From positions 62,001-126,000 of the forward strand of contig JAUSNO010000030.1 of assembly GCA_030645915.1 (NCBI GenBank): a stretch of DNA of 64,000 nucleotides. The letters are read 5' to 3'. Source of the stretch: Undibacterium sp. (GTDB lineage Bacteria > Pseudomonadota > Gammaproteobacteria > Burkholderiales > Burkholderiaceae_D). Positions 16,928 through 62,034 of this stretch are shown here, in pieces; the stretch's first letter is position 1, and every line of letters begins with the position of its first letter. Under the pieces are notes generated by a model that saw only the letters and a list, made by a program, of their open reading frames with translations, ran no database searches and was not told where the DNA came from. The translations under genes and the position numbers were made by a program.

Positions 16928-17689
16928 ATGAATAATGTAAATCAAACTCTAGATAACACCAACAACAATGGCCATAAAGCAAAAATTTTGGTGGTCGACG
17001 ATGATGTGCGTTTACGCGATCTGTTACGCCGCTACTTAACCGAGCAAGGTTTCAATGTGGTCAGTGCAGAAAATGCACAAGCGATGAATAAACTCTGGGT
17101 TCGAGAACGCTATGACATGCTTGTACTCGATTTGATGTTGCCGGGCGAAGATGGCTTGGCCATTTGTCGCCGCCTGCGCGGAGCAGGAGACCAGACCCCA
17201 ATTATTATGTTGACGGCAAAGGGTGAAGAAGTTGATCGCATTATCGGACTGGAAATGGGCGCAGACGATTACTTGCCAAAACCGTTCAGTCCGCGAGAAC
17301 TTGTTGCACGCATCAATGCTGTATTACGTCGTAAAGTTCCGGGTGAATTGCCAGGCGCACCTTCAGATGGACCGCAATCGTTTGAATTTGGTGAATTTGT
17401 GCTCGATCTTGCAACGCGTACTTTGAAAAAAAATGGCGAAAATATTAGTTTAACAACGGGTGAATTTTCTGTACTCAAAGTCTTCGCACGCCATGCAAGG
17501 CAACCACTGTCACGTGAAAAATTAATGGAGCTAGCGCGTGGTCGAGAATATGAAGTTTTTGACCGTAGTCTGGACGTACAAATTTCGCGCTTGCGCAAAT
17601 TGGTTGAACCCGACCCAACCAATCCACTGTATATACAAACTGTCTGGGGATTAGGATACGTCTTCATTCCAGACGGGCAATCGAGATAA
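16928..17689 (+). CDS. ompR: OmpR-family response regulator
   Basis: 253 residues. The receiver domain has the acidic pocket VVDDD (23-26), phosphoacceptor Asp68 in VLDLMLPG, Thr in MLTAKG and Lys in PKPF. The winged-helix output domain (about 150-245) has the OmpR-like RSLDVQISRLRKLVE recognition helix and the TVWGLGYVF wing. An unusual Asn-rich N-terminal tail of about 17 residues precedes the receiver; the ATG is the only one with room. Sixteen nt separate it from the sensor kinase gene, so the two form an operon. Similarity to E. coli OmpR is high, but the regulon here is unknown. Confidence 0.92.
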   Translation: MNNVNQTLDNTNNNGHKAKILVVDDDVRLRDLLRRYLTEQGFNVVSAENAQAMNKLWVRERYDMLVLDLMLPGEDGLAICRRLRGAGDQTPIIMLTAKGEEVDRIIGLEMGADDYLPKPFSPRELVARINAVLRRKVPGELPGAPSDGPQSFEFGEFVLDLATRTLKKNGENISLTTGEFSVLKVFARHARQPLSREKLMELARGREYEVFDRSLDVQISRLRKLVEPDPTNPLYIQTVWGLGYVFIPDGQSR

Positions 17690-17704
17690 TCAACACACTT
17701 TCTG

Positions 17705-19048
17705 ATGCGCTCTTACGTCAATAGCCTGGACTGGCTCAAAAGCGGACTTTTTTGGCGTACATTTTTTTTTCTGGCGCTATTGGTCATGGCCAGTATGGTT
17801 GCTTGGTTTGGCAGCTTTAAAATTGTTGAACGTACACCAAAAGCGCAGCAACTTGCGGCACAAATCGTGTCCGTTGTTACCATCACCCGCGCAGCATTAA
17901 CCCATTCTGCCCCAGACAAACGTCGCGAACTGCTGTTTGACTTGGCAAGTAACGAAGGTATTCGCGTTTATCTTTTAGAAGATAGCGATAAAGTCGAGCT
18001 TCCCGAATCAACAGCCAGTTTTAGCGAGTTACAAACAGTGATCCAGAGTACTCTGGGCAAGGAAACACAATTTGCCGCCAAGGTCAACGATGTTGCTGGA
18101 TTCTGGATTAGCTTCAATATCGAGGACGATCAATATTGGCTGAGACTGGATCAAGATCGAGTGACCCCGGCAAACGGATGGCAATTTTTGGGTTGGGCTG
18201 CAATCTCGCTATTTTTGACTTTGGTTGGAGCCGTTTTTATCTCCAAGTTAATCAATGATCCATTATCGCGATTAAGTAATGCGGCTCGCATGCTCGCCAA
18301 AGGGAAGCAGCCATTGCCACTACCAGAAAAAGGTCCCAGTGAAATACGCGAAACGAATGCCAGCTTCAATCAAATGGTCGATGACCTCACCAGAATTGAA
18401 TCAGATCGCGCCGTGATTCTTGCAGGTATTTCACATGATTTGCGAACGCCATTGGCACGTATGCAACTCGAAGTGGAAATGGCAAATTTAACACACGATG
18501 CACGGCAAGGAATGCAATTTGATCTAGCTCAGATGGACGTCATTATTGGACAGTTTCTCGACTACGCAAAACCACTGGAGTCGGTCACCTTTGAAATCGT
18601 CAATGTTAGCGAATTACTCGAAGGCATTATTGACGAAAGTGCGCGTCTTCCGGACATAGTAATCCGTTCTGCGATTGCCAAAGATATTCAAATGTTAGGT
18701 AATCGAGTTGAGCTATACCGACTATTCAATAATCTCATCGAAAATGGCAAACGTTACGGAAGATCACCTGGCTCACAAACCGTGAAGATGGACATCCAGT
18801 GTCATTATAAGAACGAGGAAAAAAGACAAGGCGTCTTGATCAGTGTACGAGATTATGGTGTAGGCGTTCCACAAGAAGATATAACCCGCCTGCTTCGGCC
18901 ATTTACAAGAGTCGATATCTCGCGCAGCCAAGCCAATGGTTCTGGTCTCGGTTTAGCTATTGTCGACAGAATAGTAAAGCGACACGAAGGCCGGATTCGC
19001 ATCTCGAATCACGCTACTGGCGGTTTTTTAGTCGTAATCGCTTTTTAA
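17705..19048 (+). CDS. envZ: EnvZ-like sensor histidine kinase
   Basis: 447 residues: TM1 (about 17-38), a periplasmic domain of about 115 residues, TM2 (about 160-182), HAMP (about 183-235), dimerisation domain with the H-box GISHDLRTPLARM, and HATPase with N-box NLIENGKRYG, G1 DYGVGVP and G2 GSGLGLAIVDR. It should phosphorylate and dephosphorylate the OmpR-type partner. The periplasmic region has a short extra hydrophilic loop; no ligand is predicted. The stop codon lies inside an 11-bp tandem repeat, so repeat-length changes could alter the last residues. Confidence 0.92.
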   Translation: MRSYVNSLDWLKSGLFWRTFFFLALLVMASMVAWFGSFKIVERTPKAQQLAAQIVSVVTITRAALTHSAPDKRRELLFDLASNEGIRVYLLEDSDKVELPESTASFSELQTVIQSTLGKETQFAAKVNDVAGFWISFNIEDDQYWLRLDQDRVTPANGWQFLGWAAISLFLTLVGAVFISKLINDPLSRLSNAARMLAKGKQPLPLPEKGPSEIRETNASFNQMVDDLTRIESDRAVILAGISHDLRTPLARMQLEVEMANLTHDARQGMQFDLAQMDVIIGQFLDYAKPLESVTFEIVNVSELLEGIIDESARLPDIVIRSAIAKDIQMLGNRVELYRLFNNLIENGKRYGRSPGSQTVKMDIQCHYKNEEKRQGVLISVRDYGVGVPQEDITRLLRPFTRVDISRSQANGSGLGLAIVDRIVKRHEGRIRISNHATGGFLVVIAF

Positions 19049-19076
19049 TCGCTTTTTAATCGCTTTTTAATCGTTT
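19035..19076 (+). repeat. 11-bp tandem repeat overlapping the envZ-like stop codon
   Basis: Three exact copies of TAATCGCTTTT plus a partial fourth (TAATCG). The envZ-like TAA at 19046-19048 is the first three bases of the second copy. The 11-nt unit is not a multiple of three, so copy-number change shifts frame within the repeat, but each copy supplies a TAA. Confidence 0.9.
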
Positions 19077-19092
19077 GATAACATATCGTTAT

Positions 19093-22000
19093 TTATTTGC
19101 CTGGCTTTACGTCATTCAATGCAATTTGCGTTACTGCTTTAGTGCTGGCACCTGTCGAAGTTTCACTAACGCCTCCAAGCTCGTAGCTCATATGCAGCTT
19201 CATTTCATGTTCTTTTGTTGATATAACCGGGGACATACTGTTTTTCGATACATGAAATGCCTGAGTTTTACCGGATGAATTCAAGATTGTCCAGCTTGCG
19301 GCTCCGGCAAATCCCGCACAAATAAACAAACCTAACATCGCAGAAGAGCGCAAGCGCGAACCAGTTTTTGACTTGCTCAATACAGGAAGATCAACAGACA
19401 CCGGCGACTCTTTCAACATTTGCAAAGCAAGACCGCACCAAGTTTGATTCTGTGCGTAACTTTGAGTCAGTTTGGAAATCAATTCAGTTGTTAACACTTC
19501 GGCCTGTGCATGCTCTTGTTGTAATTTCTGCCGTGCAGCTTCAGCTTTTTCACGCGCTTGCAGACTGCGCTCTTGATGTTGCTGACATAAAACTTGTGCG
19601 TCATTAAGGGCATGTTCTTCTTGAGTCGCAGTGCTTGCCGCAATGAGAAGCGCCTCAGTTTCTTCATCAATCCGTTGTTGAAGCAAAGTGCTTGCTTTTT
19701 TTTCCTCACAGAGACGTTGCGCTAACTTCTCGGTCAATTCCTTTTCTTTTTCCTGTTGTAATTGCAAGCTGGCTTGCAAAGTTTGCTGGGCGTTGAAACG
19801 CGCATCTTCCAGCATAGCCAGTTCTTCCTGTTCTTTCATTGCTTTTGCTGATTCGAGCGCAGTGTCCTTTTGTTTTTGCAGCAATGTATTTGCTGCCGCG
19901 ATCAGTTGAGATTCTTCTGCTAATTTCTGGTCAACCGCCATGCGTGCGGTGCTTTCCAGGATCAATCGTTCTTGCGCTTTACGTGTAATTTCCTTCTCAG
20001 AAAATAGACGTTTTTCTGATTCTTCGAGAATCAGTTTTTCCGCGTCCATCTTCAACTCTATCTCTTGCACGGTAGCCTGACGCAGAGCAGCAGTTTCTTG
20101 TTGCAGCACAGTTTGTGCCTGGATGCGTATTATTTCTTCATTCTCAAATAATGCGCGCTGCATTTCTGCACGTTGCAAATTAAGTAATTCTTCTGCGCGT
20201 ATTTGCGCGATAACAGCCAATTCGTTTTCTTGCGCTACTTGTTGATGAGCCAATTCGCGTGCTTCGCTCTCTATTTGAATACGTTCTTGCAAAGCGATCT
20301 TTGCGTCTTGTTCAGCAGCCATGCGCAGTTCGCATTGCGCCAAGTATTCTTGCTCAGCTGCTAAACGTTGCACAATTTCATCCGAAATTTGTCTCTCGTC
20401 AATTAACTTCTGTTGGATCGCACTTAAAGTTTCGAGTTCTATACTGGCGCGCAGATTCTCCAGACGGTTCAATTCAACTGCTTCCTGCAATTTCGCCTCA
20501 ACGGCTTCATTTGCGATCCGCTGGGTCTCTGCATGCTCTGTCGATTTGATAAATAAAGCTTGTTCAGCGGCGTGTATTTGGTGCATGTAAACAAGGGCTA
20601 GCTGCTCTTGTTCTGTCCGTTGACATGACACATCACCTAACTGACGCTCTACTTCCAGTCGCGCTTGAATCGCGTTATGCGCCAATTGATCATTATCAAG
20701 TTTCTTTTGCAGTTCTTGACTCAATTGTTTCTCAGATAATTTACGCGCCTGCTCAACTTTTGATGAGTCCAACAACAAGCGTGTTTTTTCTTCCAGTGCT
20801 TGTGCAGCTAAACGCTTATTCAATGACTCTTCAATAGAAGCTTCCAAATATTGTTTTTCAGCCCGATTAAATCTATCAAGCTCTGTTTGTAACACGTCCA
20901 TTTGTTGCTGACGTTGATAAACAAGATTTAGTTTCTCTTGCTCGGCAGCCTGCACCGCGGTAGAGGCGGCAACGGCCAATTGTTCATTGGCTTTGCATTG
21001 CTCTAAGCTCACAAGAGTTGATTGCTCTTGTTGAATTCGTTCATTTTGCCATTGCAACAAATCTTGTTCGTGCTGTAAACGCTGCTGCGTCAGATTGGCG
21101 ATAAGCTTCTCAGCATCTGCACTGGCGGCGATTTCCTGATACAGCGCCTGCTGTGTCGCCAGCTGCAGTTCACTGATGACTCTTGCCTGACGATAGGTTT
21201 CATTTTGTGCTTCAGCATATTGCAAGCTGGTTTTTTCAGTTTCCAGTTTTAAAATTAATTCTTCTTGTGCAGATTGTTCAACTTGCAGCTTCAATTCAGT
21301 AACTGTATACAGTTCACCTTCAGTTTGCATGCGTTGACTGATGACATCTTCCAACTCCGCTATTTTTTGAATTTTCCTGATAGAAAGTTGTTGCACATTT
21401 TTTTGCATTTCGGCAAAGGCATGTGCTTTTTCGTGCAGAGTTCTCTCAACGAGGACGTTCTTTTCTGCATCGAGTCTGGCCTGCTGTTCCGCTTGCGCAC
21501 GTTCGTTGGCTAGTTTTGCGTGTTCTTCTTCAAGCAATGCACGAGACTTTGCTTCGTCCATTACTGCTTTTTGCAGCGCCAATTTTTGCTGATGTGCCTC
21601 TGCCTCTTGTTTTACGGATTGTTCGCTCGCGCTCTTCAATTGATCAATGGCAGTATTGAAATTATTCAACTCCGCCAATCGACGCTGCTCCAATTCTTCC
21701 GTAATCCGTTGCTGTTCAAGCTTTGCTTGCTCGATAGCGGCGAGCAAAGTCTGCTCTGTATTTAAGTGTTGATTTTTTAATGCGCTTAATTCCTGCGCTT
21801 GCTTTAAACGACTTTGCTTTGTTTCCGCAATTAATTTCTCTGCGTCTGCGCTAGCTGCCAATTCTTGATATAGCGCTTTTTCAGTTAACAGGATTTTTTC
21901 AGCGTTAATTTTTGCCTGACGTTCGGCCAATTCATTTGCCTGACCATACTGCAATGCGATTTGTTCTGCTTCCAGTTTTGCTTTTGCTGCCTCGCTGGCC

Positions 22001-25000
22001 AATTGTTCAAGCTGAATTTTCTCTGCGATAGCGACAGATAAGGCGGTATCCGTTTCCAGACGCAATCGTGAAACATTTTCAAGTTCGGCGACTCGTTGCA
22101 CTTTTTGAACGGTAAGCTCATGCGTTTTGTGCTGAAGATCAGCATATGTACGTACTTTTTCGTGCAGCGCTTTTTCTGCTAAGACATTTTCTTCTGCACT
22201 TACTCGCGCTTCCAGCTCGGCCTTCGCTCTTTCATCGGCCAATTTTGCGTGCTCCTGCTCTAGCTGAGCGCGGCTCTTTGCCTCTTCATTGGCTATTTGT
22301 TCTTTCAGTAATTTCTCTTGCGCCGCCTGTGCTTCGATTTTCGCAACTTCGGTTCTTTCCTGCTCGAGAAGTTGCGTCTGCGTTAACGAATCCAGTGCGA
22401 TCTGTTGCGCTTGTGCTTTTCTTTTTTCCAAATCGGCCAAGTCTACCGCCACCTTCAGTCGCGCTTCGGTCGACAATTTTGCCTGTTGCTCAGCTCTTAC
22501 TTTTTCTCTGCATTGATCCAACAGATTTTTTTCTGTCAGAGTTTTTTCCTCCAGCACTTGACGAATTTCCTGTTCTTCCTTCAAGCGATTATTAAATACA
22601 GTAATGTGTTCTTGCTCAATGAACGACTTCGCTTCCAATTCCTGCAGCAATTGTTTTTCAGAGGATATTTTATGCTGCACCAGATCAAGCGCCCTCTGCT
22701 CCTCGGCAGCACGTTTCTTTAGAATAGTATTAAATTGAACTGATTCTTCTGCCTTGATTTGTGAAACTTGCGCAATCTGGCGTTGTAGATGCACATGCTC
22801 AGTCATTTTTTCAAGACGCAACTGTTCGGCAGCAAGCAAAGCCTGACGAGTTTCTTTCGCTTCCTGTTCTTTTTGCTTGCGTTCTGCAAGCACGGCAATA
22901 TGCGCAAGATCGCCATGTGCTTTTGCAAGAATCTGCTCAGCAGCGTCTTTCTCTGCCTCAAGCTTTTGCTGATTGACATGCGCGGCATCGCGCTCCGCCT
23001 CCAGACGCAATTGTTCGACTTTGGTCATCTCGACCATTTGCCTTGCCTTAAGCAAGGCAAAAGTTGCCGCTTTATGTTGCAATTGGGATTGCAGTTGAAC
23101 TTGCTCTAGCGCTTCCTGCTCCGCAAATAGGGTATTTTCAAGCGACTGTCTTTGCTCACGTTCTAGTTGCCCTTTTGCCAGAGCCAGTTCTTTCGCTTCT
23201 TGTTCAGCGTTTAATCTCGCTTCGGCTTCAGCTTGGGCGACCTGCTCGGAATCCAACTTTTCCTTCGTTGCATTGAGCACCAGTTGTATTGAGTCTGCAC
23301 GTTTACGTTCTGCTGCCAACTTTTCTTGTATCAGTGCCAGAGCCGCAGTTTCATCTTCTGTACGTCGCTGCTGGATTTGCAATAAGCGGCTTGATTCCTC
23401 ATTCTTTTGAACCGCAATTTGGGCGCATTGCTGCTCCAACTTTGCTTGCGCCATCGCATTATCGAGTACGCGTTTCTCTGCAATACATTTTGTCTCATTG
23501 GCAGTTCTGGCGACCAAATCGGCTTGTTGCTGCATTTGCAATAATGCTACATGCGTCTGCTCGGTTTTCGCGAGCGCCTCTGCCTCTATGGCGTTTTGCT
23601 CTTCCATGAGAGATTTTGCCTTAATGACATCGGCGACTTTTTGTTCGGCGTCGGCTCTGCGTTGCTCGGCTTTGGCTAACTCAAGAACATTATTTTCCTT
23701 GTTTGCAGCAGCAACATTGGCTTTATTTAATAATTCTGTCTGAATTGCCACGGCATTGAGCGCTTGTTGCTCAGCATCAGCGAGTTCTCGGGCTTTTTTT
23801 GCCGCCTCGCGCTCCATGATGATTAATTCTTTGCTGATTTGCATCGCGCGCTGCTCTTCAACGGCACGCTGTTTTGCGAATTTAATCGCCTCTTGATCTG
23901 CCTGACGTCGAGCCTGCGCTTCTGCTGCAGCGATAGACTCTGCTTCAAAACGCGCGCGGGCATTGACATCGGCATGCTGTTCAGTTTCAACGCGCAACAT
24001 CGCTGCGGTTTGCAATTCTCTTTCTGCCTTGATTCTGGACTCAGTCACGCCACGAATCTTCTCTTCCGCATCGCGTCTGGCCTGCGCTGCTGCCGTTGCG
24101 ACGGCTTCAGCCAATTCGCGCTTATTGGCCGCGATATGTAACTCTTGCTCAGCCTGCATACGTAACTGAATGGCTTCTCCTGCCCGTTTTTCAGATTCGG
24201 CGCGCGCTTGTGCAATCGCCTCATATTCTTGCTCCAGACTTACCCGTGCCAGTGCGTCTTCACGCGCTCTGGCTTCGACCGGCGCACGATTTATCGCAAA
24301 TTCCAGAGCCATCGCTTCAGCCTGATCGCGCTCTCGATTGACTTGTTGTGATTCATTTCTTACTTTTGCGAGCATTTCTGCTGTCTCACGCGCCTCTTTA
24401 TCTCTGCGTTCTCTTTCTCTTGCCAGTTCAGCGATACGTGCATCTACCCTTGCCCGTTCTTCCGCTTCCTGTATGGCGGCATTCGATGCGGCCTCACGTT
24501 CGGCCGCCCAACGACGGGCATTTTGTGTCTCTTTTGCTAAACTTTCCGCTGCTATTTTTGCTTTTTTTGAAATTTCGCTTTCAGCTTTGAGTTGCTCTGC
24601 GGCCCTTTGTTTGGCTTTTTTTTCAAATTCAACACGTTGCTCTGCTTGCTCTCTTGCTTGAGTCTCAAGCAGCGCCCTTTCGTTCAACTCTTCAGTTTCC
24701 TGGCTATTGGCGGCGATTCTCGCTTCACTTGCTGCACTTGATTGGCGATCAGCTTCTTGCCTTGCGCGGCTGCTAACGATTACTTTTTCTTCCAGATCCA
24801 CTTTTCTCTGCGCTAAGGCTGCTGCATCGACATCGGTCTGAGCCCGCTCTTCAGCCAGACTTCTTGCTCTGGCTTCTGTCTGTGCGCGATGTTCTGCGGC
24901 GACTGTCGCACGTGCTTCCGCTTCAACTCTGGCGATCGCAGCGCGAATGCCTTTAACATCGATGCGCGACTGTGACTCAAGAGATGCCTCGGACGTCATA

Positions 25001-25083
25001 TATTCATCGCTTTTATCCGCACGGCCATCCAGGGCATATGCCCCCATGGATAGTCTGTCTAACAATGTCTTATTCGCGTCCAT
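19093..25083 (-). CDS. Giant tail-anchored coiled-coil protein (1996 aa)
   Basis: No known domain is recognisable. After about 40 non-repetitive residues the chain is almost pure Ala/Glu/Gln/Arg/Lys/Leu. From residue 252 to 917 a motif [R/K]-x-x-A-E recurs every 14 residues without loss of heptad phase (47 steps of 14 plus one of 7). Residues about 914-1130 are repeated at +243. There is no proline between 268 and 1894. A TM helix (about 1914-1934, LGLFICAGFAGAASW) with Arg on its N-side leaves a 62-residue C-terminal tail, probably periplasmic. The ATG has an AGAGGTGA ribosome-binding site. It is convergent with the kinase gene and divergent from upp. A rod, spacer or filament role is inferred from shape alone; crescentin/FilP-type and TolA-like proteins are analogues of form, not shown homologues. 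Confidence 0.9.
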   Translation of the reverse strand: MDANKTLLDRLSMGAYALDGRADKSDEYMTSEASLESQSRIDVKGIRAAIARVEAEARATVAAEHRAQTEARARSLAEERAQTDVDAAALAQRKVDLEEKVIVSSRARQEADRQSSAASEARIAANSQETEELNERALLETQAREQAEQRVEFEKKAKQRAAEQLKAESEISKKAKIAAESLAKETQNARRWAAEREAASNAAIQEAEERARVDARIAELARERERRDKEARETAEMLAKVRNESQQVNRERDQAEAMALEFAINRAPVEARAREDALARVSLEQEYEAIAQARAESEKRAGEAIQLRMQAEQELHIAANKRELAEAVATAAAQARRDAEEKIRGVTESRIKAERELQTAAMLRVETEQHADVNARARFEAESIAAAEAQARRQADQEAIKFAKQRAVEEQRAMQISKELIIMEREAAKKARELADAEQQALNAVAIQTELLNKANVAAANKENNVLELAKAEQRRADAEQKVADVIKAKSLMEEQNAIEAEALAKTEQTHVALLQMQQQADLVARTANETKCIAEKRVLDNAMAQAKLEQQCAQIAVQKNEESSRLLQIQQRRTEDETAALALIQEKLAAERKRADSIQLVLNATKEKLDSEQVAQAEAEARLNAEQEAKELALAKGQLEREQRQSLENTLFAEQEALEQVQLQSQLQHKAATFALLKARQMVEMTKVEQLRLEAERDAAHVNQQKLEAEKDAAEQILAKAHGDLAHIAVLAERKQKEQEAKETRQALLAAEQLRLEKMTEHVHLQRQIAQVSQIKAEESVQFNTILKKRAAEEQRALDLVQHKISSEKQLLQELEAKSFIEQEHITVFNNRLKEEQEIRQVLEEKTLTEKNLLDQCREKVRAEQQAKLSTEARLKVAVDLADLEKRKAQAQQIALDSLTQTQLLEQERTEVAKIEAQAAQEKLLKEQIANEEAKSRAQLEQEHAKLADERAKAELEARVSAEENVLAEKALHEKVRTYADLQHKTHELTVQKVQRVAELENVSRLRLETDTALSVAIAEKIQLEQLASEAAKAKLEAEQIALQYGQANELAERQAKINAEKILLTEKALYQELAASADAEKLIAETKQSRLKQAQELSALKNQHLNTEQTLLAAIEQAKLEQQRITEELEQRRLAELNNFNTAIDQLKSASEQSVKQEAEAHQQKLALQKAVMDEAKSRALLEEEHAKLANERAQAEQQARLDAEKNVLVERTLHEKAHAFAEMQKNVQQLSIRKIQKIAELEDVISQRMQTEGELYTVTELKLQVEQSAQEELILKLETEKTSLQYAEAQNETYRQARVISELQLATQQALYQEIAASADAEKLIANLTQQRLQHEQDLLQWQNERIQQEQSTLVSLEQCKANEQLAVAASTAVQAAEQEKLNLVYQRQQQMDVLQTELDRFNRAEKQYLEASIEESLNKRLAAQALEEKTRLLLDSSKVEQARKLSEKQLSQELQKKLDNDQLAHNAIQARLEVERQLGDVSCQRTEQEQLALVYMHQIHAAEQALFIKSTEHAETQRIANEAVEAKLQEAVELNRLENLRASIELETLSAIQQKLIDERQISDEIVQRLAAEQEYLAQCELRMAAEQDAKIALQERIQIESEARELAHQQVAQENELAVIAQIRAEELLNLQRAEMQRALFENEEIIRIQAQTVLQQETAALRQATVQEIELKMDAEKLILEESEKRLFSEKEITRKAQERLILESTARMAVDQKLAEESQLIAAANTLLQKQKDTALESAKAMKEQEELAMLEDARFNAQQTLQASLQLQQEKEKELTEKLAQRLCEEKKASTLLQQRIDEETEALLIAASTATQEEHALNDAQVLCQQHQERSLQAREKAEAARQKLQQEHAQAEVLTTELISKLTQSYAQNQTWCGLALQMLKESPVSVDLPVLSKSKTGSRLRSSAMLGLFICAGFAGAASWTILNSSGKTQAFHVSKNSMSPVISTKEHEMKLHMSYELGGVSETSTGASTKAVTQIALNDVKPGK
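20959..22344 (-). repeat. Internal duplication of 243 codons in the giant coiled-coil gene
   Basis: Residues about 914-1130 align to about 1157-1375 with a constant offset of 243 residues. EEAKSRAQLEQEHAKLADER (933) matches DEAKSRALLEEEHAKLANER (1176), and AASADAEKLIA is identical at 1076 and 1319. The copies are diverged outside these blocks, so the duplication is old. Confidence 0.85.
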
Positions 25084-25387
25084 TCTTCACCTCTGGTCAA
25101 TGGTCACTCCCTGTTCATATTCAAGATACTTATGGGAGTTTCATAACTTGGATTATCACTGAACAAAAAACAAACAATGGCTGAATAAGAATAAGAAAAC
25201 GCCTTCATTTCATCACTATGAAATTGATTGGAGATAAAGATTACTCTTTGGACAAAAAAATTAAAGTATCGTAAAAGTGGAATTTACTTTTAAAACATGA
25301 CAATCTGCTCTCGGAGTCACCATTCGCGCCCTGAGGGACGTAAAATAATGGCTGGCAAATTTTGCATAACTCTTACGGAGAATTATC
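25084..25387. promoter_or_regulatory. Divergent intergenic region between the giant coiled-coil gene and upp
   Basis: 304 nt without a gene. It must hold the promoters of both flanking genes. The ends carry clear ribosome-binding sites: AGAGGTGA for the giant gene and ACGGAG for upp. Several A/T-rich tracts (about 25160-25290) are present, but I see no clear promoter hexamer pair, hairpin or repeat. Confidence 0.4.
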
Positions 25388-26020
25388 TTGGCAGAATCAG
25401 TTACCGAAATCAGACATCCCCTGATGCAACACAAATTGAGCCTGATGCGTAGCAAGGACACCCCGACGGATAACTTCCGCCGTCTCTTGCGCGAGATCAG
25501 TCAAATGCTAGCCTATGAAGTAACTCGCGACTTACCTTTGGAAAATGTCGAAATTGAAACACCGATTGCGACTATCGCGGCGCCTACCATTAGCGGCAAG
25601 AAACTCTGCGTTATTTCAGTATTAAGGGCTGGCAACGGTATTTTGGATGGCATGCTCGATTTATTGCCAAATGCGCGCGTTGGCCACATTGGCCTGTATC
25701 GCGACCCCGTAACTTTGGAACCCGTTGAATATTATTTCAAGGTGCCTGAGGATATTGCCGAGCGCCTGGTGATAGTGGTAGACCCTATGCTGGCAACCGG
25801 CAATTCGGCCGCGGCTGCCATCACCCGCTTGAAACTGCGCGGAGCGGTAAGCATCAAGTTTGTTTGCCTGCTGGCAGCACCCGAGGGCATCAAGGTAATG
25901 CAGGAAGCGCATCCGGATGTATCAATTCTGACTGCATCGATTGATCAATGCCTTAACGAACACGGCTATATTGTTCCTGGCTTGGGTGATGCTGGTGATA
26001 GATTGTTTGGTACCAAATAA
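25388..26020 (+). CDS. upp: Uracil phosphoribosyltransferase, TTG start
   Basis: 210 residues. [16 protein letters not shown] is the PRPP-binding loop, MLASG-like as in Upp, and the uracil-binding C-terminus reads [17 protein letters not shown]. It salvages uracil to UMP with PRPP. The start is TTG at 25388: GGAG lies 7 nt upstream and no ATG fits the conserved N-terminus ([19 protein letters not shown]-like). Length and motifs match the family (about 208-210). Confidence 0.97.
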
Positions 26021-26200: not shown

Positions 26201-26620
26201 TTAAGATGTTTTCTTTTCCTTGAGTTTTTCGTCAAGCTCTTCGATGTGTTGCTTACGTTGCAGCGCTTTCGCCTCAACCGTAATGCGCTGCAAAATATCG
26301 TTGTTGTTACGGCGGATCAATTTGATACCGTTCAAACAATACGTGACGAAAAATTTTTCGTAACACGCCAGTTCAGATTGCACATACCATTTTTGCAAAG
26401 TGATTTTGGCGTTCTCCGTCTCGGTTAACGCTTGTTCCGCCATCGTCAGCGTCTGTATCGAACCCGCGGCATAGGCCTTGTCAAGCGAGGTGATGGTCCT
26501 GTTTAATTGTGGCAGCGCGGCTTTATCCTGTTCATCCATGGCATTAGCGGTTTGAAAAAACATGGAGAGACTAAATGCGGCAAGACCAAATACCGATGTA
26601 GAACGAAAAGCGAACTTCAT
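26201..26620 (-). CDS. Small exported protein of unknown function
   Basis: About 139 residues from the ATG at 26620 (MKFAFRSTSVFGLAAF), supported by an AAGG ribosome-binding site; the upstream extension lies in the zapE end. Signal peptide about 1-27 (ending TANAM). The mature part is helical and charged with two Cys (ELACYEKFFVTYCLNG) that could form a disulfide, and a Lys/Glu-rich C-terminus KLKEKKTS. It follows zapE by 25 nt on the same strand. No family is recognised beyond conserved betaproteobacterial hypotheticals found beside zapE. Confidence 0.75.
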   Translation of the reverse strand: MKFAFRSTSVFGLAAFSLSMFFQTANAMDEQDKAALPQLNRTITSLDKAYAAGSIQTLTMAEQALTETENAKITLQKWYVQSELACYEKFFVTYCLNGIKLIRRNNNDILQRITVEAKALQRKQHIEELDEKLKEKKTS

Positions 26621-26645
26621 AGTAAAACCTTTTTCAATAAATGGC

Positions 26646-27743
26646 TCATGCAATCGACGTAGCGACTTGCCGCTGGTCAGCATCCATGTATTCACGCGAC
26701 TGCATCTCGATAATGCGTGACACGGTACGATGGAACTCATTTGATAAAGTACCTTGGGTATAAAGCTCTTCCGGTATCACTTCAGCAGACATGATCAGCT
26801 TTACTTTATTATCATAAAATACATCAATTAACCAGGTAAAGCGACGTGCTTCAGATGACATTGCCGCTGACATCGCAGGTATCGACGACAAAATCACAGT
26901 ATGAAAACGGCTGGCGATTTCCAGATAATCATTTTGAGAACGCGGACCACCGCATAACGTTGAAAAATCAAACCAAATGACACTGCCGGCACGACGTAAC
27001 GCCCGCAGCTCACGCCCTTCAATGTTGACGTGCGCATCCTCATCACTCGTTTCAGCAATACGTAAAAACGTATCACGCAAGCGTTGATCTGTGACGGCAG
27101 AGAGGGGCGTCAAATAGGCGTCCACCTGCTCCAAGGCGCGCTTGCGATAATCATTGCCGGAATCGACATTAAGTACGTCCAGTTTTTCTTTAAGTAAGGC
27201 AATGGTGGGCAACATCCGATCGCGATGCAGTCCATCCGGATACAAAGTGTCTGGCTGATAATTAGAGGTCATGACAAACGACACCCCGTTTTCAAACAAC
27301 GCTTTTAGTAAGTTATATAGCAGCATGGCATCTGCCACATCTGAAACATGAAACTCATCAAAACATATCAGACGGTACTTCTTGGCGATACGACGCGCGA
27401 CTTCATCCAAAGGATCTGCCACGCCTTTTAGTTCATCTAACTGGCGATGCACAGCGCGCATAAATTCATGAAAATGTAATCTTGTCTTACGAACTACCGG
27501 CACCACAGAATAAAAACTATCCATCAAAAAAGACTTGCCACGCCCTACCCCGCCCCACATGTACACGCCTCGCGGAACTTCTGGGCGGGTGATCAGGCGT
27601 GTAAGCTTATTTGAGCGCTTTGTTTTATACAGTACCCATTCTTCATAAGCCTGCTGAAGACGATCAACCGCAAGTTGTTGCGCGGCATCTGACTGAAAGC
27701 CGCGTTTGGTCAATGCATCTTGGTAAAACTCGGAAACGTTCAT
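26646..27743 (-). CDS. zapE: Cell division protein ZapE (AFG1-like ATPase)
   Basis: 365 residues of the AFG1/ZapE P-loop family. Walker A GGVGRGKSFLMD at about residue 65, Walker B LICFDEFHVSDVADAM, sensor TSNYQPDTLYPDGLHRD, and the C-terminal IDVFYDNKVKLIMSAE are diagnostic. In E. coli ZapE destabilises FtsZ bundles late in constriction and under stress or low oxygen. It follows lpdA after a 168-nt gap that contains a perfect hairpin and an 8-bp tandem repeat, so it may have its own promoter there. Confidence 0.95.
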   Translation of the reverse strand: MNVSEFYQDALTKRGFQSDAAQQLAVDRLQQAYEEWVLYKTKRSNKLTRLITRPEVPRGVYMWGGVGRGKSFLMDSFYSVVPVVRKTRLHFHEFMRAVHRQLDELKGVADPLDEVARRIAKKYRLICFDEFHVSDVADAMLLYNLLKALFENGVSFVMTSNYQPDTLYPDGLHRDRMLPTIALLKEKLDVLNVDSGNDYRKRALEQVDAYLTPLSAVTDQRLRDTFLRIAETSDEDAHVNIEGRELRALRRAGSVIWFDFSTLCGGPRSQNDYLEIASRFHTVILSSIPAMSAAMSSEARRFTWLIDVFYDNKVKLIMSAEVIPEELYTQGTLSNEFHRTVSRIIEMQSREYMDADQRQVATSIA

Positions 27744-47731: not shown

Positions 47732-48364
47732 CTATTCTGACGCATCAGATCGAATGATCTGCGGGATCGCAAGCAATGCGTGGGAGCTACACAATATGAT
47801 GGAGAGATCTGTCTGAGATAAGTCAATGCAACTGGCCTGCGTACTGATCTCATTCACAGAGTTTGCGTTAGATGCGAGCTTAAACTTGGCTTCCTTGGTA
47901 CTCCAGAGTAGATAGAACGCCTTTAATTGATCGTCACTATCTAGCTTGCCAAACCGGGCGAACTCATCCGGATCAAAAGCCTGCTCAGCGAGTGCGATCA
48001 AGTCCCTGGCTGGATTGATCACTTCTATATCAAGCCCTAACGCCGTGTCAAGACTGACTGCACAAGCCACCCATGATCCGCTGTGCGACAAGCTGAAATA
48101 AGGCGCTGCTCCGGACCAATTCAAACGCGGCGCATGATTACTTTGCCCGGTCAAGGAAATGCGTTCTGCAGGCAATTCCAGCAACTTTCCCAAGGCAATC
48201 CGCAGCAGAATACGTCCGATCAAAAACTGCCGTTGCCGCTGAGGTCTTAGAAAAGCGTCGTAACGCAGGCGCTCTTCGGCACTGAGCCAAAGGAACCCTC
48301 GTTGCAGCTCAATCTCGCCAACGATGCGACTGTCTACCAGCCACACCGTTGCTGCTGAAGTCAC
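47732..48364 (-). CDS. 4'-phosphopantetheinyl transferase (Sfp-type), GTG start
   Basis: About 210 residues from the GTG at 48364, which begins one base after the upstream gene stop; a longer ATG frame from 48463 would overlap that gene by about 100 nt. SLSHSGSWVACAV, LGLDIEVINPARD and LLWSTKEAKFKL are the three Sfp/AcpT motifs (CoA and Mg2+ binding, catalytic Glu/Lys). It converts apo-ACP to holo-ACP, required for polyene synthesis by the neighbouring ketosynthases. It is the last gene of the cluster. Confidence 0.9.
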   Translation of the reverse strand: MTSAATVWLVDSRIVGEIELQRGFLWLSAEERLRYDAFLRPQRQRQFLIGRILLRIALGKLLELPAERISLTGQSNHAPRLNWSGAAPYFSLSHSGSWVACAVSLDTALGLDIEVINPARDLIALAEQAFDPDEFARFGKLDSDDQLKAFYLLWSTKEAKFKLASNANSVNEISTQASCIDLSQTDLSIILCSSHALLAIPQIIRSDASE

Positions 48365-48365
48365 A

Positions 48366-48809
48366 TTACTTTTCAGCGATGGTAACAAAGTCAGCCTTGA
48401 AGGCGACACCTGCCATGATGGCGCCAACGTGGCATTCGAATTCGGTTTCACTTGAATTTTCAACGTGATTGTAATTGCTTACGATATTGATGACGGCATT
48501 TGCACCTAATTCCTTAGCGCGTTTTTGCAAAGAAAGCATGTCGGAAAGAAATACCCAATTGCAGGCTTTTTCATTGGATTTACCGAACGCATTTGTCTTT
48601 TGACTGGTCGTATCACTGCCAAGTTTTTTTAACACTTTGGGTGTGGCCTGCTTACCAAAATAAAACTTTACCGAATCGCCAAGTCGCGATTGCGCATCAT
48701 TCGCTGCCATCGCTGCATCAATTGGCATCATCAATTTATTGTCCGCCGCTTGCGCAGGCATCGCTAAAATTGCACCCATAGTTGCTATCATAGAAATTAC
48801 TTTTTTCAT
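48366..48809 (-). CDS. Secreted protein of unknown function in the polyene cluster
   Basis: 147 residues with a signal peptide (about 1-22, ending MPAQAAD). The mature part has two Cys (EKACNWVFLS, FECHVGAI) and a region SLQKRAKELGANAVINIVSNY that recalls the YbjQ/heavy-metal-binding-like fold seen in proteins wrongly labelled excinuclease subunit. It lies between the terminal ketosynthase and the phosphopantetheinyl transferase on the same strand, and its stop nearly touches the latter's start. A role in pigment handling in the envelope is possible but unsupported. Confidence 0.8.
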   Translation of the reverse strand: MKKVISMIATMGAILAMPAQAADNKLMMPIDAAMAANDAQSRLGDSVKFYFGKQATPKVLKKLGSDTTSQKTNAFGKSNEKACNWVFLSDMLSLQKRAKELGANAVINIVSNYNHVENSSETEFECHVGAIMAGVAFKADFVTIAEK

Positions 48810-48844
48810 CTTCTTTCCCTATAAAAACTACTTTACCCGCTCGA

Positions 48845-50074
48845 TTAGCGGTATCTCTTAAAAATAAGTGAGGTATTGATTCCACCAAAGGCAAAATTAT
48901 TCGACATCACGTACTCACATTGCAGTACCCTGCCCTCGCCCATGATGTAATCGAGTTCGGCACATTGCGCATCTACTTTTTCAAGATTGATGGTTGGCGC
49001 AAACCAGCCTTCGCGCATCATTTCTATACTGATCCACGCCTCCAGCGCGCCGCACGCACCCAGCGTGTGCCCCATATAACTTTTCAGTGAGCTGATCGGC
49101 ACGTGTTTGCCGAACACCTGGGCTGTGGCATGCGATTCGGCAATGTCGCCCTGCTGAGTACCAGTGCCGTGCGCATTGATATAGCCGATGTCGGATGCCT
49201 GCAAACCCGCATCTTCCAAGGCCAGCAGCATCGCCAGTTTCATGGTCTCGGCATTTGGCTGAGTGACGTGGCAGCCATCGCTATTAGTGCCAAAACCAAC
49301 CAGCTCGGCATGAATGGTCGCGTTACGCGTCAGGGCATGCTCCATGTCTTCCAGAATCAGGCAACCTGCGCCCTCACCGATGACCAGACCATCACGCCCG
49401 GCATCGAATGGTCTGGGCGTAGTGCCAGGCGCATCATTTTTCACACTGGTCGCAAACAAGGTGTCAAACACGGCCGCTTCGGTCGCACACAATTCTTCGG
49501 CACCACCGGCAATCATGGCTTTTTGTTTGCCTGTCTTGATCGCTTCATAGGCGTAACCTATGCCCTGACTACCCGAAGTGCAGGCACTTGATGTCGTGAT
49601 TACCCTGCCCGTCACACCAAAGAAGACACCAATATTCACCGGAGCCGTGTGTGCCATCATCTTGATATAGGTGGTGGCATTAATACCTTTGGTGGTGCGC
49701 TCTTCCATCATGCGGCCAAAATCGCCGATAGCGCTTGGGGTGCCCGCCGACGAGCCAAAAGAGACGCCCATTTGGCCGCTCTTGACGAATGGATCATCGA
49801 GTAAACCCGCATGGATCAGCGCCAACTCGCTGGCACGCGTCGCCATCAGCGCAATCCGTCCCATGCTGCGCATGGTTTTACGGTTAAATTTATCAGACAA
49901 CTCGAACGGCGCAGCTGGTGCACCAAGCTGAGTATTCAAGCCCTCATAGTCGGCCCATTCCGGCATACGTGTCACCGCATTTTTATATTCGCCGAGACGC
50001 GTACGTATGGTGCTCCAATCGTTGCCAACCGGGCTGATGCCGGCCATGCCGGTCACGACGACGCGATGTTTCAT
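48845..50074 (-). CDS. Beta-ketoacyl-ACP synthase (FabF-like; ApeR-position)
   Basis: About 409 residues from the ATG at 50074 (MKHRVVVTGMAGISPVG; GGAATAAG upstream). Thiolase-fold KS with the full triad: Cys165 in SSACTSG, His in NAHGTGTQQGD and His in SLKSYMGHTLGACGA. It condenses malonyl-ACP with the growing chain, or, by analogy to the E. coli aryl-polyene cluster, starts or supports chain elongation. The KS-DH-KR-KS gene order 52492 to 48845 matches that cluster. Confidence 0.93.
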   Translation of the reverse strand: MKHRVVVTGMAGISPVGNDWSTIRTRLGEYKNAVTRMPEWADYEGLNTQLGAPAAPFELSDKFNRKTMRSMGRIALMATRASELALIHAGLLDDPFVKSGQMGVSFGSSAGTPSAIGDFGRMMEERTTKGINATTYIKMMAHTAPVNIGVFFGVTGRVITTSSACTSGSQGIGYAYEAIKTGKQKAMIAGGAEELCATEAAVFDTLFATSVKNDAPGTTPRPFDAGRDGLVIGEGAGCLILEDMEHALTRNATIHAELVGFGTNSDGCHVTQPNAETMKLAMLLALEDAGLQASDIGYINAHGTGTQQGDIAESHATAQVFGKHVPISSLKSYMGHTLGACGALEAWISIEMMREGWFAPTINLEKVDAQCAELDYIMGEGRVLQCEYVMSNNFAFGGINTSLIFKRYR

Positions 50075-50084
50075 CTTATTCCTT

Positions 50085-50840
50085 TCATGCCATGCCACCA
50101 TTGACTGAAATCACCTGGCGCGTGACATAGGCCGCATCTTCACTCAGCAAAAAACTAACGACAGCGGCAACTTCCTCAGGCTTGCCGACACGTCGTGCCG
50201 GTATCATTTTAAGCGCTTCTTCCATAGGGACATCGCTGATCATATCGGTTTCAATCAGGCCGGGGGCGACGCAGTTAACCGTAATCTCACGCTTTGCCAA
50301 CTCTAAGGCGAGTGCCTTGGTCGCGCCGATAATGCCTGCTTTGGCAGCGCTGTAGTTGACCTGGCCACGGTTACCGATCAAGCCAGAGACTGATGCCAGC
50401 GTCACGATACGACCTGGTTTGCGTCGCCGTACCATAGGCATGGTCAGAGGATTGAGGACATTAAAAAATCCGTCCAGATTGGTCTGTAGAACGATATCCC
50501 AATCCTCGCCCGACATCGCCGGAAACGCATTGTCGCGCGCCACGCCGGCATTGCAGATAATCCCGTAGTAACAGCCATGCTGCTCGACATCGGCCAATAA
50601 AATGTCAGACGCTATTTCTCGCTTACCAATATCGAATTGCAAAACACGCGCTGACCGCCCCATCTCCACGATGGTCTGTGCAACAGCATCGGCCTCAGCA
50701 CGTTGGCTGCGACAATGCAAGACGATGTCATAGCCATCACGCGCCAGGCGCAATGCGATCGCCTTACCAATACCACGTGAAGATCCCGTCACCAGCACAC
50801 TCTTATTTAACCCGTTGTTCTGACTCTCACTAACTTGCAT
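50085..50840 (-). CDS. 3-oxoacyl-ACP reductase (FabG-like)
   Basis: 251-residue SDR: TGSSRGIGKAI cofactor loop, NAGVARDNAF, catalytic Ser in LASVSGLIGNRGQ and YSAAK. It has the FabG ending YVTRQVISVNGGMA. Within the ketosynthase-dehydratase-ketoreductase set it should reduce the 3-oxo intermediate each cycle, using NADPH. Ten nt separate its stop from the next ketosynthase start. Confidence 0.93.
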   Translation of the reverse strand: MQVSESQNNGLNKSVLVTGSSRGIGKAIALRLARDGYDIVLHCRSQRAEADAVAQTIVEMGRSARVLQFDIGKREIASDILLADVEQHGCYYGIICNAGVARDNAFPAMSGEDWDIVLQTNLDGFFNVLNPLTMPMVRRRKPGRIVTLASVSGLIGNRGQVNYSAAKAGIIGATKALALELAKREITVNCVAPGLIETDMISDVPMEEALKMIPARRVGKPEEVAAVVSFLLSEDAAYVTRQVISVNGGMA

Positions 50841-50855
50841 ACTGCGCTTTCATCT

Positions 50856-51314
50856 CTATAGTCCCTGCAAAAAATCATTCACATTCTCTGGCTGAAAAAC
50901 GGTAATGGTAGCGGTTGCCGCACTCACTTCGTTTGCCTCATTCACAACGTTAATGTGGCATTCAAAGGCCCCCAAACCATTCTCACTTTGCAACATACGT
51001 TTCACATGCACATGCAATACATTTCCCAGTGCAAAACTGGATCGGCTACATTCATAACGCCTCGCGCCTAGTAAAAATCCAACCTTTACCGAATCACCGC
51101 GTAAATTGGCTATATAGCCAGCGTGCGCTGCGATGGCCTGTGCCATATATTCAACACCGACCCAAGTCCCCACACCATGTTCATTAAGGAACAAGGTATC
51201 GGGCCCTATCGTCACCTCGGCACATAAGGTTTCGTCATCTGCAGCGATCACCCGATCGAGCAACACCATCGCACCGGAGTGCGGCACCAGGCTGCGAATA
51301 TCGGGGAAGCTCAT
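50856..51314 (-). CDS. Hotdog 3-hydroxyacyl-ACP dehydratase (ApeP-like)
   Basis: 152 residues of hotdog fold, related to FabZ/FabA-like dehydratases: SLVPHSGAMVLLDRV (conserved His), then VGVEYMAQAIAAHAGY and a final beta-sheet region. It should remove water without isomerisation so that conjugated double bonds accumulate. Its start overlaps the ketosynthase stop by 4 nt (ATGA). A second dehydratase domain is fused to the AMP-ligase (62035-63765), so two dehydratases serve the cluster. Confidence 0.85.
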   Translation of the reverse strand: MSFPDIRSLVPHSGAMVLLDRVIAADDETLCAEVTIGPDTLFLNEHGVGTWVGVEYMAQAIAAHAGYIANLRGDSVKVGFLLGARRYECSRSSFALGNVLHVHVKRMLQSENGLGAFECHINVVNEANEVSAATATITVFQPENVNDFLQGL

Positions 51315-52492
51315 CGGCCTCTTCCAAACACCAATGTGGCATTCGAACCGCCAAAGGCAAAAGAGTTACTTAATGTCCATTGCAACGGTCGTCCCAAGCA
51401 AGTACCCGGTGCCACAAGCTTGAGTGCCGGAAGCGCAGGATCAGAAACGCCATCCCATAAATGCGGCGGCATGTGACCGGCAGCGTTATCATCCTGCATT
51501 GCCAGCCAGCATAAAGCGGCCTCTATCGCTGCTGCTGCACCTAGTGTATGGCCAGTAAATGGCTTGGTCGAACTCACATAGATATCCGGCCCAAAAAGGT
51601 CGTGAACTACACGCGATTCCATCGCATCATTTTGTATCGTTGCCGTACCGTGCAGGTTAATGTAATCGATTTGCGATGCCTGAATACCCGCACGCTGCAA
51701 GGCCTGCGTTATCGACAGGCGAGCGCCACCGCCTGCGGGGTCAGGGGCAGACATATGATGCCCGTCAGATGACTCGCCCCAGCCACACAAAGCAACGCTA
51801 GACGGCTCGCGCGTCATCAAAAACAAGGCTGCGCCTTCACCGATATTGATACCATTTCGATTGGCGCTAAGTGGATTGCATTGTGTAGTACTGACCGATT
51901 CAAGCGCAGAAAAACCGGCAACCGTGAACGCACACAAGGTATCAACGCCTCCGGTCAACACCGCATCACACAAGCCCATATTGATCAGGCGCGCAGCACT
52001 GGCAAGCGCCTTTGCACTCGACGAGCACGCACTGGAATGCGTCAATGCCGGACCGATTATGCCAAGTTCAGTCGCGAGCATGCTGGCTGGAGAGCCCATT
52101 TCCTGCTGTGCATAATGGAAGTCTTCGGGAAGCGTGCCATCAGCGACATACTGGCGTAATGCGACTTCAGTGCCGGCAATACCGGAGGTGCTAGTGCCGA
52201 CAACGACACCTACGCGATCGATACCATAGCGGGCAATCGCCTCATTCACAGGCAGGCGGATTTGCTCCAAAGCAGCGAGTGCCATCTGGTTATTGCGGCT
52301 GCGCTGTTGCACTGGCCAAGCAAGCATTGAAGGCAAATCAGTATCCGCCTGTCCAAGCGGCAGCAAGCGGCCAGCGGACCATGCTTCTGTCAATGCCAGG
52401 CCGCTCTGAACCTGGTCAAACAGGCGCGACTTGATCGTTTCATGCGTATCGCCTAACGCGCATACGATTCCACATTCATTCAGATACAACAT
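51311..52492 (-). CDS. Beta-ketoacyl synthase (ApeO-position)
   Basis: 393-residue KS with a complete Cys-His-His triad: Cys156 in SSACSSSAKA, His in NLHGTATIQND and His in STKPFTGHTLGAAAA. It therefore looks like an active condensing enzyme, not a chain-length-factor partner, which would lack Cys. It differs from the other KS by a shorter N-terminal half and a variable 30-60 region. It is coupled to the dehydratase by an ATGA overlap. Confidence 0.9.
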   Translation of the reverse strand: MLYLNECGIVCALGDTHETIKSRLFDQVQSGLALTEAWSAGRLLPLGQADTDLPSMLAWPVQQRSRNNQMALAALEQIRLPVNEAIARYGIDRVGVVVGTSTSGIAGTEVALRQYVADGTLPEDFHYAQQEMGSPASMLATELGIIGPALTHSSACSSSAKALASAARLINMGLCDAVLTGGVDTLCAFTVAGFSALESVSTTQCNPLSANRNGINIGEGAALFLMTREPSSVALCGWGESSDGHHMSAPDPAGGGARLSITQALQRAGIQASQIDYINLHGTATIQNDAMESRVVHDLFGPDIYVSSTKPFTGHTLGAAAAIEAALCWLAMQDDNAAGHMPPHLWDGVSDPALPALKLVAPGTCLGRPLQWTLSNSFAFGGSNATLVFGRGR

Positions 52493-52532
52493 AATTTCCC
52501 GTATTTCATTGACCGTATTTCATTAAAGTATT

Positions 52533-53105
52533 TCACTGAGACCCGCTGACGACCGACTGAATACTAAGCCGGTAACCGTAGCGTAAATTATCCAGTGTAA
52601 CGGTACCGCTCCAACGCGGCAAAGCGGCATAATTAATAACAGCAACAACGGTGTCGCCCTTAGACAGGGTGCGACGCAAGCCTTCCTCTTCAATGTGCCA
52701 TCCAGCTGGCAACGCTTTCCTGATGCTCGCGAGCGGCCACAAGGTGAGTTGCATGTCTTCAAGCACATCTTCCGCACGCACCTGAGATGGCAACATCACA
52801 TGCCGCCATGACTGTAATGTTTTACCGTCGTAATGCAGACTCAACACACGCTGGCCAAACGCCAAACCCACGAGCTCCAGATGCTCACTATCGATCTCCA
52901 ATGCAGCATCAAGCTCATCTATTCGTCCGTTACGCTCGACCTTCAAGTGCTGCTGCAATGCAAGCGATTCGCCCAGATCTGCTGGCGCCAGCGCCAGACC
53001 CAGCCTGGCCAAAGGCGCGACTGGTTGCGTGACGCAAGCGGCCAATAATAAGGGTAAAACCAAGGATAAAACCAAGGCAAAAAAGGAGCTTACTCTGGTG
53101 TACAT
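52533..53105 (-). CDS. DUF3261 lipoprotein
   Basis: 190 residues with a lipoprotein signal (LLLAAC, lipid Cys24) and the DUF3261 pattern: LVGLAFGQRVLSLHYDG and VLEDMQLTLWPLASIRKALP. In aryl-polyene clusters a DUF3261 protein of unknown function sits next to the exporter and LolA-like genes, suggesting outer-membrane delivery of the pigment lipid. Its start overlaps the upstream flavoenzyme by 16 nt. Confidence 0.88.
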   Translation of the reverse strand: MYTRVSSFFALVLSLVLPLLLAACVTQPVAPLARLGLALAPADLGESLALQQHLKVERNGRIDELDAALEIDSEHLELVGLAFGQRVLSLHYDGKTLQSWRHVMLPSQVRAEDVLEDMQLTLWPLASIRKALPAGWHIEEEGLRRTLSKGDTVVAVINYAALPRWSGTVTLDNLRYGYRLSIQSVVSGSQ

Positions 53106-62006: not shown

Positions 62007-62034
62007 CCGGGATATTTATTTGGTAACGACGACA

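Follow-up and report, generated by a model that had tools for sequence, protein, structure and literature searches.

In the present study we analysed a 64,000-nucleotide stretch of Undibacterium sp. DNA (contig JAUSNO010000030.1 of assembly GCA_030645915.1, positions 62,001 to 126,000; hereafter the window), which carries a gene for a coiled-coil protein of 1996 amino acids (positions 19093..25083, minus strand). This protein very probably consists of a long rod followed by a C-terminal membrane anchor, as indicated by hydropathy, structural models and the distribution of charged residues. It has relatives across the Oxalobacteraceae and, judging from its sequence, probably serves as a tether or scaffold. 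A fuller explanation, namely that it is an envelope-anchored tether of long reach, possibly acting together with Csd6-like trimming of the cell wall, is put forward more tentatively, at slightly less than an even chance.

The gene and its product

The open reading frame (ORF) is uninterrupted, begins with an ATG at position 25083 and is preceded, 4 bases upstream, by a Shine-Dalgarno-like AGAGGTG (25088..25094, minus strand). The initial annotation of the window had described, without stating the strand, a giant single gene with a strong ribosome-binding site, and both statements hold for the minus strand; the plus-strand reading of 19093-25083 contains stops throughout. The protein is composed mainly of Ala (16.9%), Glu (14.8%), Leu (11.5%) and Gln (11.5%). 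Its only prolines are located at residues 268, 1894, 1900, 1952 and 1994, and thus none is present within residues 269-1893, as had been noted for the stretch between 268 and 1894. The gene is present in a single copy in its own genome. In a scan for promoters and terminators, the number of sites was not above that in shuffled sequences.

The initial annotation had recognised no named family, and the searches bore this out: no family was matched in Pfam or NCBIfam (E<=0.01) or in PHROGs (E<=0.001), and no match was found by sequence in the PDB (E<=0.01). A protein database search with the full protein gave no matches, and the same search with a related N-terminus gave a single nameless match of 857 aa; both covered only the ~7990 candidates with the most words in common with the query, a set that can be swamped by low-complexity words. 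Word searches of an open-access library revealed, as far as titles and opening lines of abstracts show, no paper on a coiled-coil protein of this kind in Undibacterium, Oxalobacteraceae or Janthinobacterium.

Distribution of the rod protein and selection acting on its gene

Relatives of the rod protein were detected in 40 of 43 Undibacterium genomes, including all 35 of good quality, and, with N-terminal alignment A1 as the query, in 185 of 294 genomes of Oxalobacteraceae, representing 22 of 42 genera. None of 20 family genomes without a match yielded one when rescanned with alignment A5 at E<=0.1. The profile search for Burkholderiales homologues suggested in the initial annotation has uncovered a family that spans the Oxalobacteraceae and bears no Pfam or NCBIfam name. 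At the level of the order, 26 of 399 genomes matched at 1e-6, 15 of them from other families. Strong N-terminal matches in these other families were observed at G399:C42:5843-6310 and G386:C83:173519-173995, while the remainder (E from 1e-15 to 7e-7) may reflect chance similarity between coiled coils.

A first scan of contigs with 200 residues of the window protein gave no match, and a scan with alignment A3 gave 163 loci, of which 80 were kept. The genera represented include Herminiimonas, Noviherbaspirillum, Janthinobacterium, Massilia, Duganella, Pseudoduganella, Rugamonas, Telluria, Solimicrobium and Sapientia. From 135 fetched proteins we obtained 98 unique rows, after removal of identical copies and of cut, truncated or motif-less entries (L033, L050, L108, L117, L155, L175, L192; no gene was obtained from L194). 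The window protein is the longest of the 98 (range 724-1996 aa). In one of the excluded loci, L033 (5046-9476), the rod frame stops early (1476 aa) and lacks the anchor, while the gene neighbourhood is normal. The ratio of nonsynonymous to synonymous substitution rates (dN/dS) was 0.03-0.13 in all eight close pairs of relatives, which points to a selected protein gene under strong purifying selection.

Architecture of the rod

The repeat structure of the protein agrees with a coiled coil, as the check proposed in the initial annotation confirmed: power at periods 3.5 and 7.0 was 20.6-26.1 for four residue classes, compared with maxima of 12.0-13.9 in 200 shuffles each. The shaft (residues 269-1892; 19408..24279, minus strand) is built on a heptad register with a 14-residue repeat and a 98-residue super-period, as indicated by the period statistics and, for residues 1758-1892, by AlphaFold2. 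In 20 rods a 14-state cyclic model gained 0.240 nats per residue, compared with 0.143 for 7 states; hendecads and other periods were rejected, with gains of only 0.028 (11), 0.035 (15) and 0.071 (18) nats. Within the 14-mer, position 3 is K/R in 70% and position 7 is D/E in 69% of cases, Ala or Leu occupies positions 0, 4, 10, 11 and 13, and Ala position 6. The predicted rod face is Ala-rich and wide, unlike that of a plain leucine zipper.

Among all lags of 14-629 residues, lag 98 gave the highest mean self-similarity over 23 proteins, being missing from the top lags in two of the three anchor-less representatives of that set. Comparisons between genera revealed rod gaps of 98 or 196 residues in 8 of 11 pairs (in two of these the 98 residues are divided among separate gaps) and no such step in the other three; these pairs were picked once rod lengths were known and are not independent. 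When the anchor distance was taken modulo 98 in 29 rows from outside Undibacterium, the remainder 95 occurred in six and the remainder 22 in five, all of the latter with a distance of 1100 and three of them named Herminiimonas. Modulo 7, the distances were spread over several classes.

The window protein itself contains a 243-residue insertion that arose by internal duplication (residues ~1061-1303, with inexact edges; 21175..21903, minus strand). Self-similarity at offset 243 amounts to 48% identity over 120 residues, and this is the sole rod gap relative to L031; in comparisons with six congeners, the gaps within residues 50-1360 sum to exactly 243 in each case. The number 243 is not a multiple of 7, and the window protein shows a register break near residue 1155. 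Its only other break lies at residue 171. Of 20 rods, 11 show no break beyond residue 220, and eight others, the window protein apart, show one or more late breaks. In trials of the break finder all 18 test deletions were recovered, and 19 and 9 breaks were reported for two shuffled rods. Indels of whole heptads were unsupported among close relatives.

Myosin molecules pack with a stagger close to 98 residues. In a charge-stagger test of 24 proteins (60 block shuffles each), lateral packing of this type was rejected, as charges facing each other at 97-99 residues repel (mean z about -2.1 to -2.6). No clear antiparallel charge signal was found in the same set, the best mean z being 0.6.

Fully straight, the rod is predicted to reach up to about 270 nm, a length that is an extrapolation, given that the AlphaFold2 models covered 218 and 240 of the 1996 residues.

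The N-terminal end

The tip of the protein (residues 1-42; 24958..25083, minus strand), defined from alignment A1 and the AlphaFold2 model of residues 1-218, contains a short helix (residues 4-12, LLxRLS) followed by a region modelled with low confidence (14-38), and is probably disordered after residue 12. Next to it lies a conserved block (residues 40-66, RIDVKGIRAAIARVEAEARATVAAEHR; 24886..24966, minus strand) with invariant columns in alignments A1 (21 rows), A3 (25 rows) and A5 (25 rows). In 21 congeners the pattern R40-I-D-V-K-G-I..AIARVEAEA varies little or not at all, and across genera the mean column identity is 66% (160 columns, 25 rows).

The block leads into an N-terminal arm (residues 43-267; 24283..24957, minus strand), modelled as one helix from residue 43 to 217, mostly with a predicted local distance difference test score (pLDDT) >90. 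Residues 49-470 are free of gaps in the alignment of 16 of 17 representatives from other genera. The arm ends at Pro268 (24280..24282, minus strand), the sole proline between residues 1 and 1893 and a possible hinge. Among representatives of other genera, 10 of 12 anchored ones share it and none of five anchor-less ones does; within Undibacterium, a proline occurs 140-235 residues downstream of the N-terminal motif in 33 of 34 rows.

The predicted C-terminal anchor and tail

At the other end of the shaft, a juxtamembrane motif W...A..ML...PV (residues 1882-1896; 19396..19440, minus strand) was recognised, whose W is invariant in alignment A4 (28 rows) and nearly so in A2 (22 rows). It is followed by a predicted transmembrane helix (residues 1911-1934; 19282..19353, minus strand). 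The hydropathy maximum (1.79) falls at residues 1916-1934, and the N-terminal part contains no hydrophobic segment. The AlphaFold2 model of residues 1757-1996 consists of a helix (1758-1892), a second helix (1911-1934) and a low-confidence tail.

Of 65 anchored rows, 56 contain more lysines and arginines in the 20 residues that precede the hydrophobic stretch than in those that follow it, and eight contain equal numbers (mean 3.48 before and 1.37 after). This excess predicts an N-in/C-out topology, with a cytoplasmic rod and a tail that projects into the periplasm. The tail so placed (residues 1935-1996; 19096..19281, minus strand), covered by alignment A2, is probably disordered. It carries the motif LHMSYEL (residues 1963-1969; 19177..19197, minus strand); the pattern L.MSY.L is present in its strict form in 57 and in a looser form in 63 of the 65 anchored rows, and its strict form in none of 33 anchor-less ones.

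These results also refine the initial annotation, which had described an almost pure helix-forming sequence without recognisable domains and had mentioned neither the transmembrane helix with its tail nor the 14/98-residue repeat, the 243-residue duplication or the family. The sequence is indeed helix-forming, and the structure prediction of fragments that had been recommended returned helices at both ends, with low confidence for the tip, the transmembrane helix and the tail. The protein is not featureless: both of its ends are conserved, its repeat is regular, and an anchor and tail are predicted at its C-terminus.

The anchor-less clade

The 33 anchor-less proteins originate from Massilia, Duganella, Pseudoduganella, Rugamonas, Telluria and Janthinobacterium. 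In a tree obtained by quick search from 334 columns of 98 N-terminal halves, they form one side of a branch with a Shimodaira-Hasegawa-like approximate likelihood ratio (SH-aLRT) support of 100, which suggests that loss of the anchor was one change. The protein L151, from a metagenome-assembled genome named Janthinobacterium, is anchored and lies outside this group. The clade has retained the N-terminal block and a shorter rod. The conserved W occurs within the last 45 residues of 15 of the 33 proteins, many of which do not end there. We also considered whether the anchor might be encoded as a separate downstream frame, and rejected this, as the motif was absent from the 1500 bases downstream in all 15 cases inspected.

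Gene neighbourhood and candidate partners

In the window the rod gene lies between the two-component pair ompR/risS (16928..19048, plus strand; RisS_PPD, HAMP, HisKA and HATPase_c domains in risS) and upp (25388..26020, plus strand), all assigned with Pfam and NCBIfam, which agrees with the EnvZ-like kinase and upp reported initially as its neighbours. In 35 fetched Undibacterium loci it adjoins risS in 27, upp in 24 and both in 21.

Several further features of these regions were observed. The risS stop codon is spanned by 3.5 perfect copies of TAATCGCTTTT (window 19035-19073). A 179-aa protein without a Pfam match (26201-26740, minus strand) adjoins zapE across many Undibacterium loci. A run of fatty-acid-type genes, for ketosynthases and for dehydratase-like, ammonia-lyase-like, acyltransferase and exporter-like proteins (47732-63906, minus strand), looks, by eye, like an aryl-polyene pigment cluster. 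In Herminiimonas and its relatives (L142, 2394-9667), a ~1700-aa kinase/AAA/GAF/HATPase protein and a 702-aa response-regulator/DUF3369 kinase are encoded just before the rod gene, and flhD/flhC-looking genes, recognised by eye, adjoin it in L101 (4758-5677) and L105.

Among the 80 loci kept from the A3 scan, 25 lie outside Undibacterium and are anchored; in 15 of these 25 the rod gene is followed, in the same orientation, by an adjacent gene for a TPR protein, for a YkuD protein, or for both, and both are present in 12 of the 15. The two neighbour proteins carry the same NTF2-like domain, Cds6_C. The YkuD neighbour of Herminiimonas and Noviherbaspirillum shares YkuD and Cds6_C with the LD-carboxypeptidases Csd6 and Pgp2 and matches their structures (PDB 4xzz, 6xj6); the other adjacent protein differs from Csd6 and Pgp2 in having TPR, in place of YkuD, combined with Cds6_C. 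The genome of the window encodes a YkuD protein with the same two domains and with PDB matches to Csd6 (4xzz) and Pgp2 (6xj6, 6xj7).

Outside the anchor-less genera, 77 of 79 genomes with a rod also encode a Csd6-like enzyme (tallied by hand over the 294 family genomes; the anchored state itself was determined for 65 rows, and the two long frames G176 and G058, from anchor-less genera, were left aside). The TPR partner was detected in all 24 genomes with anchored rods and in none of 10 with anchor-less ones, the enzyme-keeping genomes of genus g38 lying outside this sample of 34. Csd6 and Pgp2 are described as trimming peptidoglycan peptides and setting helical cell shape in Helicobacter and Campylobacter (PMC4599014, PMC8038945), and an Aeromonas YkuD protein with homology to HP0518 as modulating cell length (PMC4398505).

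Discussion

According to the mechanism proposed here, several chains would be wound together into a cytoplasmic coiled-coil rod, anchored in the inner membrane by the predicted C-terminal helix. The N-terminal block would grip a cytoplasmic partner at the far end, and the L.MSY.L tail would fix the base of the rod to a periplasmic partner. The best candidates for the latter are the Csd6-like peptidoglycan enzyme and its TPR partner, in which case the rod might position, or report on, wall trimming. We regard the wall-trimming pair as a doubtful partner, distinctly less probable than the tether or scaffold role itself. Still more speculative, and in our view unlikely, is a bacterial counterpart of the tail-anchored golgins discussed below, a modular ruler varying in length by 14.6-nm (98-residue) steps, which would couple a cytoplasmic structure at the tip, across the inner membrane, to Csd6-like trimming, its length setting the distance from the wall at which the cell positions that structure or senses its shape.

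Several of our results weigh against the wall-linked tether. The second C-terminal helix was modelled with a pLDDT of only ~54-64. The heptad register is not absolute, since 35 close congener pairs displayed nine small rod gaps within residues 70-1500, with lengths of 1, 2 and 3 residues. In the genome of the window the TPR and Csd6-like genes lie side by side on the same contig, but ~100 kb away from the rod gene. Csd6-like enzymes are also present in 55 of 109 genomes without a rod, and in 18 of 106 genomes of the anchor-less genera, all 18 belonging to g38 (18 of 29). The retention of the enzyme in these 18 genomes weakens the link to the wall; moreover, all eight g38 rods checked in enzyme-bearing genomes are anchor-less, and thus losing the anchor does not go together with losing the enzyme. 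A joint loss of the two had been suggested by a hand-picked set, in which 0 of 10 genomes had the enzyme, and was weakened once the g38 genomes were counted; the apparent pattern was a sampling effect. The connection between rod and enzyme is one of association rather than strict dependence. Finally, a species of Janthinobacterium, an anchor-less genus, is described as having slightly curved cells (PMC7922066), which counts against a simple role in cell curvature. The g38 enzymes fall into two identity groups (~57-59% and 52-55%), several of the latter being located near contig ends; transfer is a possible source of this division.

The rod protein shares features with several known systems. 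It resembles TolA in its long Ala/Lys/Glu-rich helix, by prediction tied to the inner membrane. In TolA the anchor is N-terminal and the rod periplasmic; membership of that family was rejected, as the single predicted span of the rod protein is C-terminal, its rod is predicted to be cytoplasmic and no Pfam match was obtained. An ATPase of the SMC/MukB type was dismissed as well (no Pfam head domain, and ends formed by a short tip and a membrane tail), as was a phage tail tape-measure protein (no PHROGs match, housekeeping neighbours). In layout the rod protein resembles the tail-anchored golgins (giantin, golgin-84, CASP), described as long cytoplasmic coiled coils on a C-terminal transmembrane domain (PMC4707255), an arrangement that the rod protein shares by prediction. 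However, golgins are eukaryotic Golgi proteins whose coiled coils are often broken, according to the same description (PMC4707255), whereas few breaks occur here, and the rod protein differs from them in its conserved tail beyond the membrane; kinship was neither tested nor is it claimed.

Among the alternatives, a rather unlikely but most serious one is a cytoskeletal protein resembling intermediate filaments (IF), whose side-by-side, membrane-attached filaments would give the cell stiffness or shape, as crescentin or FilP might. These are likewise bacterial cytoplasmic coiled-coil rods, and IF-like coiled-coil proteins of bacteria are reported to shape cells (PMC2680258). The regular repeat of our protein could supply repeated lateral contacts along its length, and the rod is retained in relatives that have lost the anchor. 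Like charges would nevertheless face each other at 97-99 residues, with no clear antiparallel signal to compensate. The IF-like proteins in PMC2680258 are described as having segmented rods and assembling into filaments, a description that includes no membrane helix, whereas our protein has a C-terminal membrane helix by prediction and a long rod with few breaks, 11 of 20 rods being unbroken after residue 220. Of the scaffold, spacer or filament envisaged in the initial annotation, the first two fit; for the version encoded here, a membrane-anchored tether is more probable than a free filament.

A hub at the pole or division site that gathers chemotaxis, motility or signalling complexes appears less probable still. 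Like the rod protein as predicted, HubP and FimV are large, cross the inner membrane once and extend far into the cytoplasm, and some relatives of the rod protein lie near signalling genes (for an MCP and CheZ at L147 and for hybrid kinases at L142) or the flhD/flhC-looking genes mentioned above; these neighbours are, however, not kept across genera. HubP/FimV proteins are described as combining a LysM-like domain in the periplasm with an acidic region in the cytoplasm and a FimV TPR domain at the C-terminus (PMC12918733), whereas the rod protein contains no LysM-like or FimV-type domain detectable in Pfam or NCBIfam at E<=0.01 and has the opposite topology. It is highly improbable that we are dealing with a low-constraint repetitive protein without a specific role, which persists by chance and lengthens through repeat slippage. 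Internal duplications do occur, and the rod is missing from 109 of the 294 family genomes, but the low dN/dS values, the presence of relatives in every good Undibacterium genome, the near absence of rod indels among congeners and the conservation of both ends all speak against it.

Coiled coils are already known in bacteria as cytoskeletal elements and polar scaffolds. From these the membrane-anchored tether favoured here would be set apart by its tail anchor, its conserved periplasmic motif and its 98-residue length steps. A membrane-anchored rod of such predicted reach, bearing conserved hooks on either side of the membrane and varying in length by exactly 98 residues, would offer a clean natural system for the measuring or bridging of distances within the cell, and the anchor-less clade, in which the anchor and tail are gone while the N-terminal block and a shorter rod are kept, constitutes a natural experiment.

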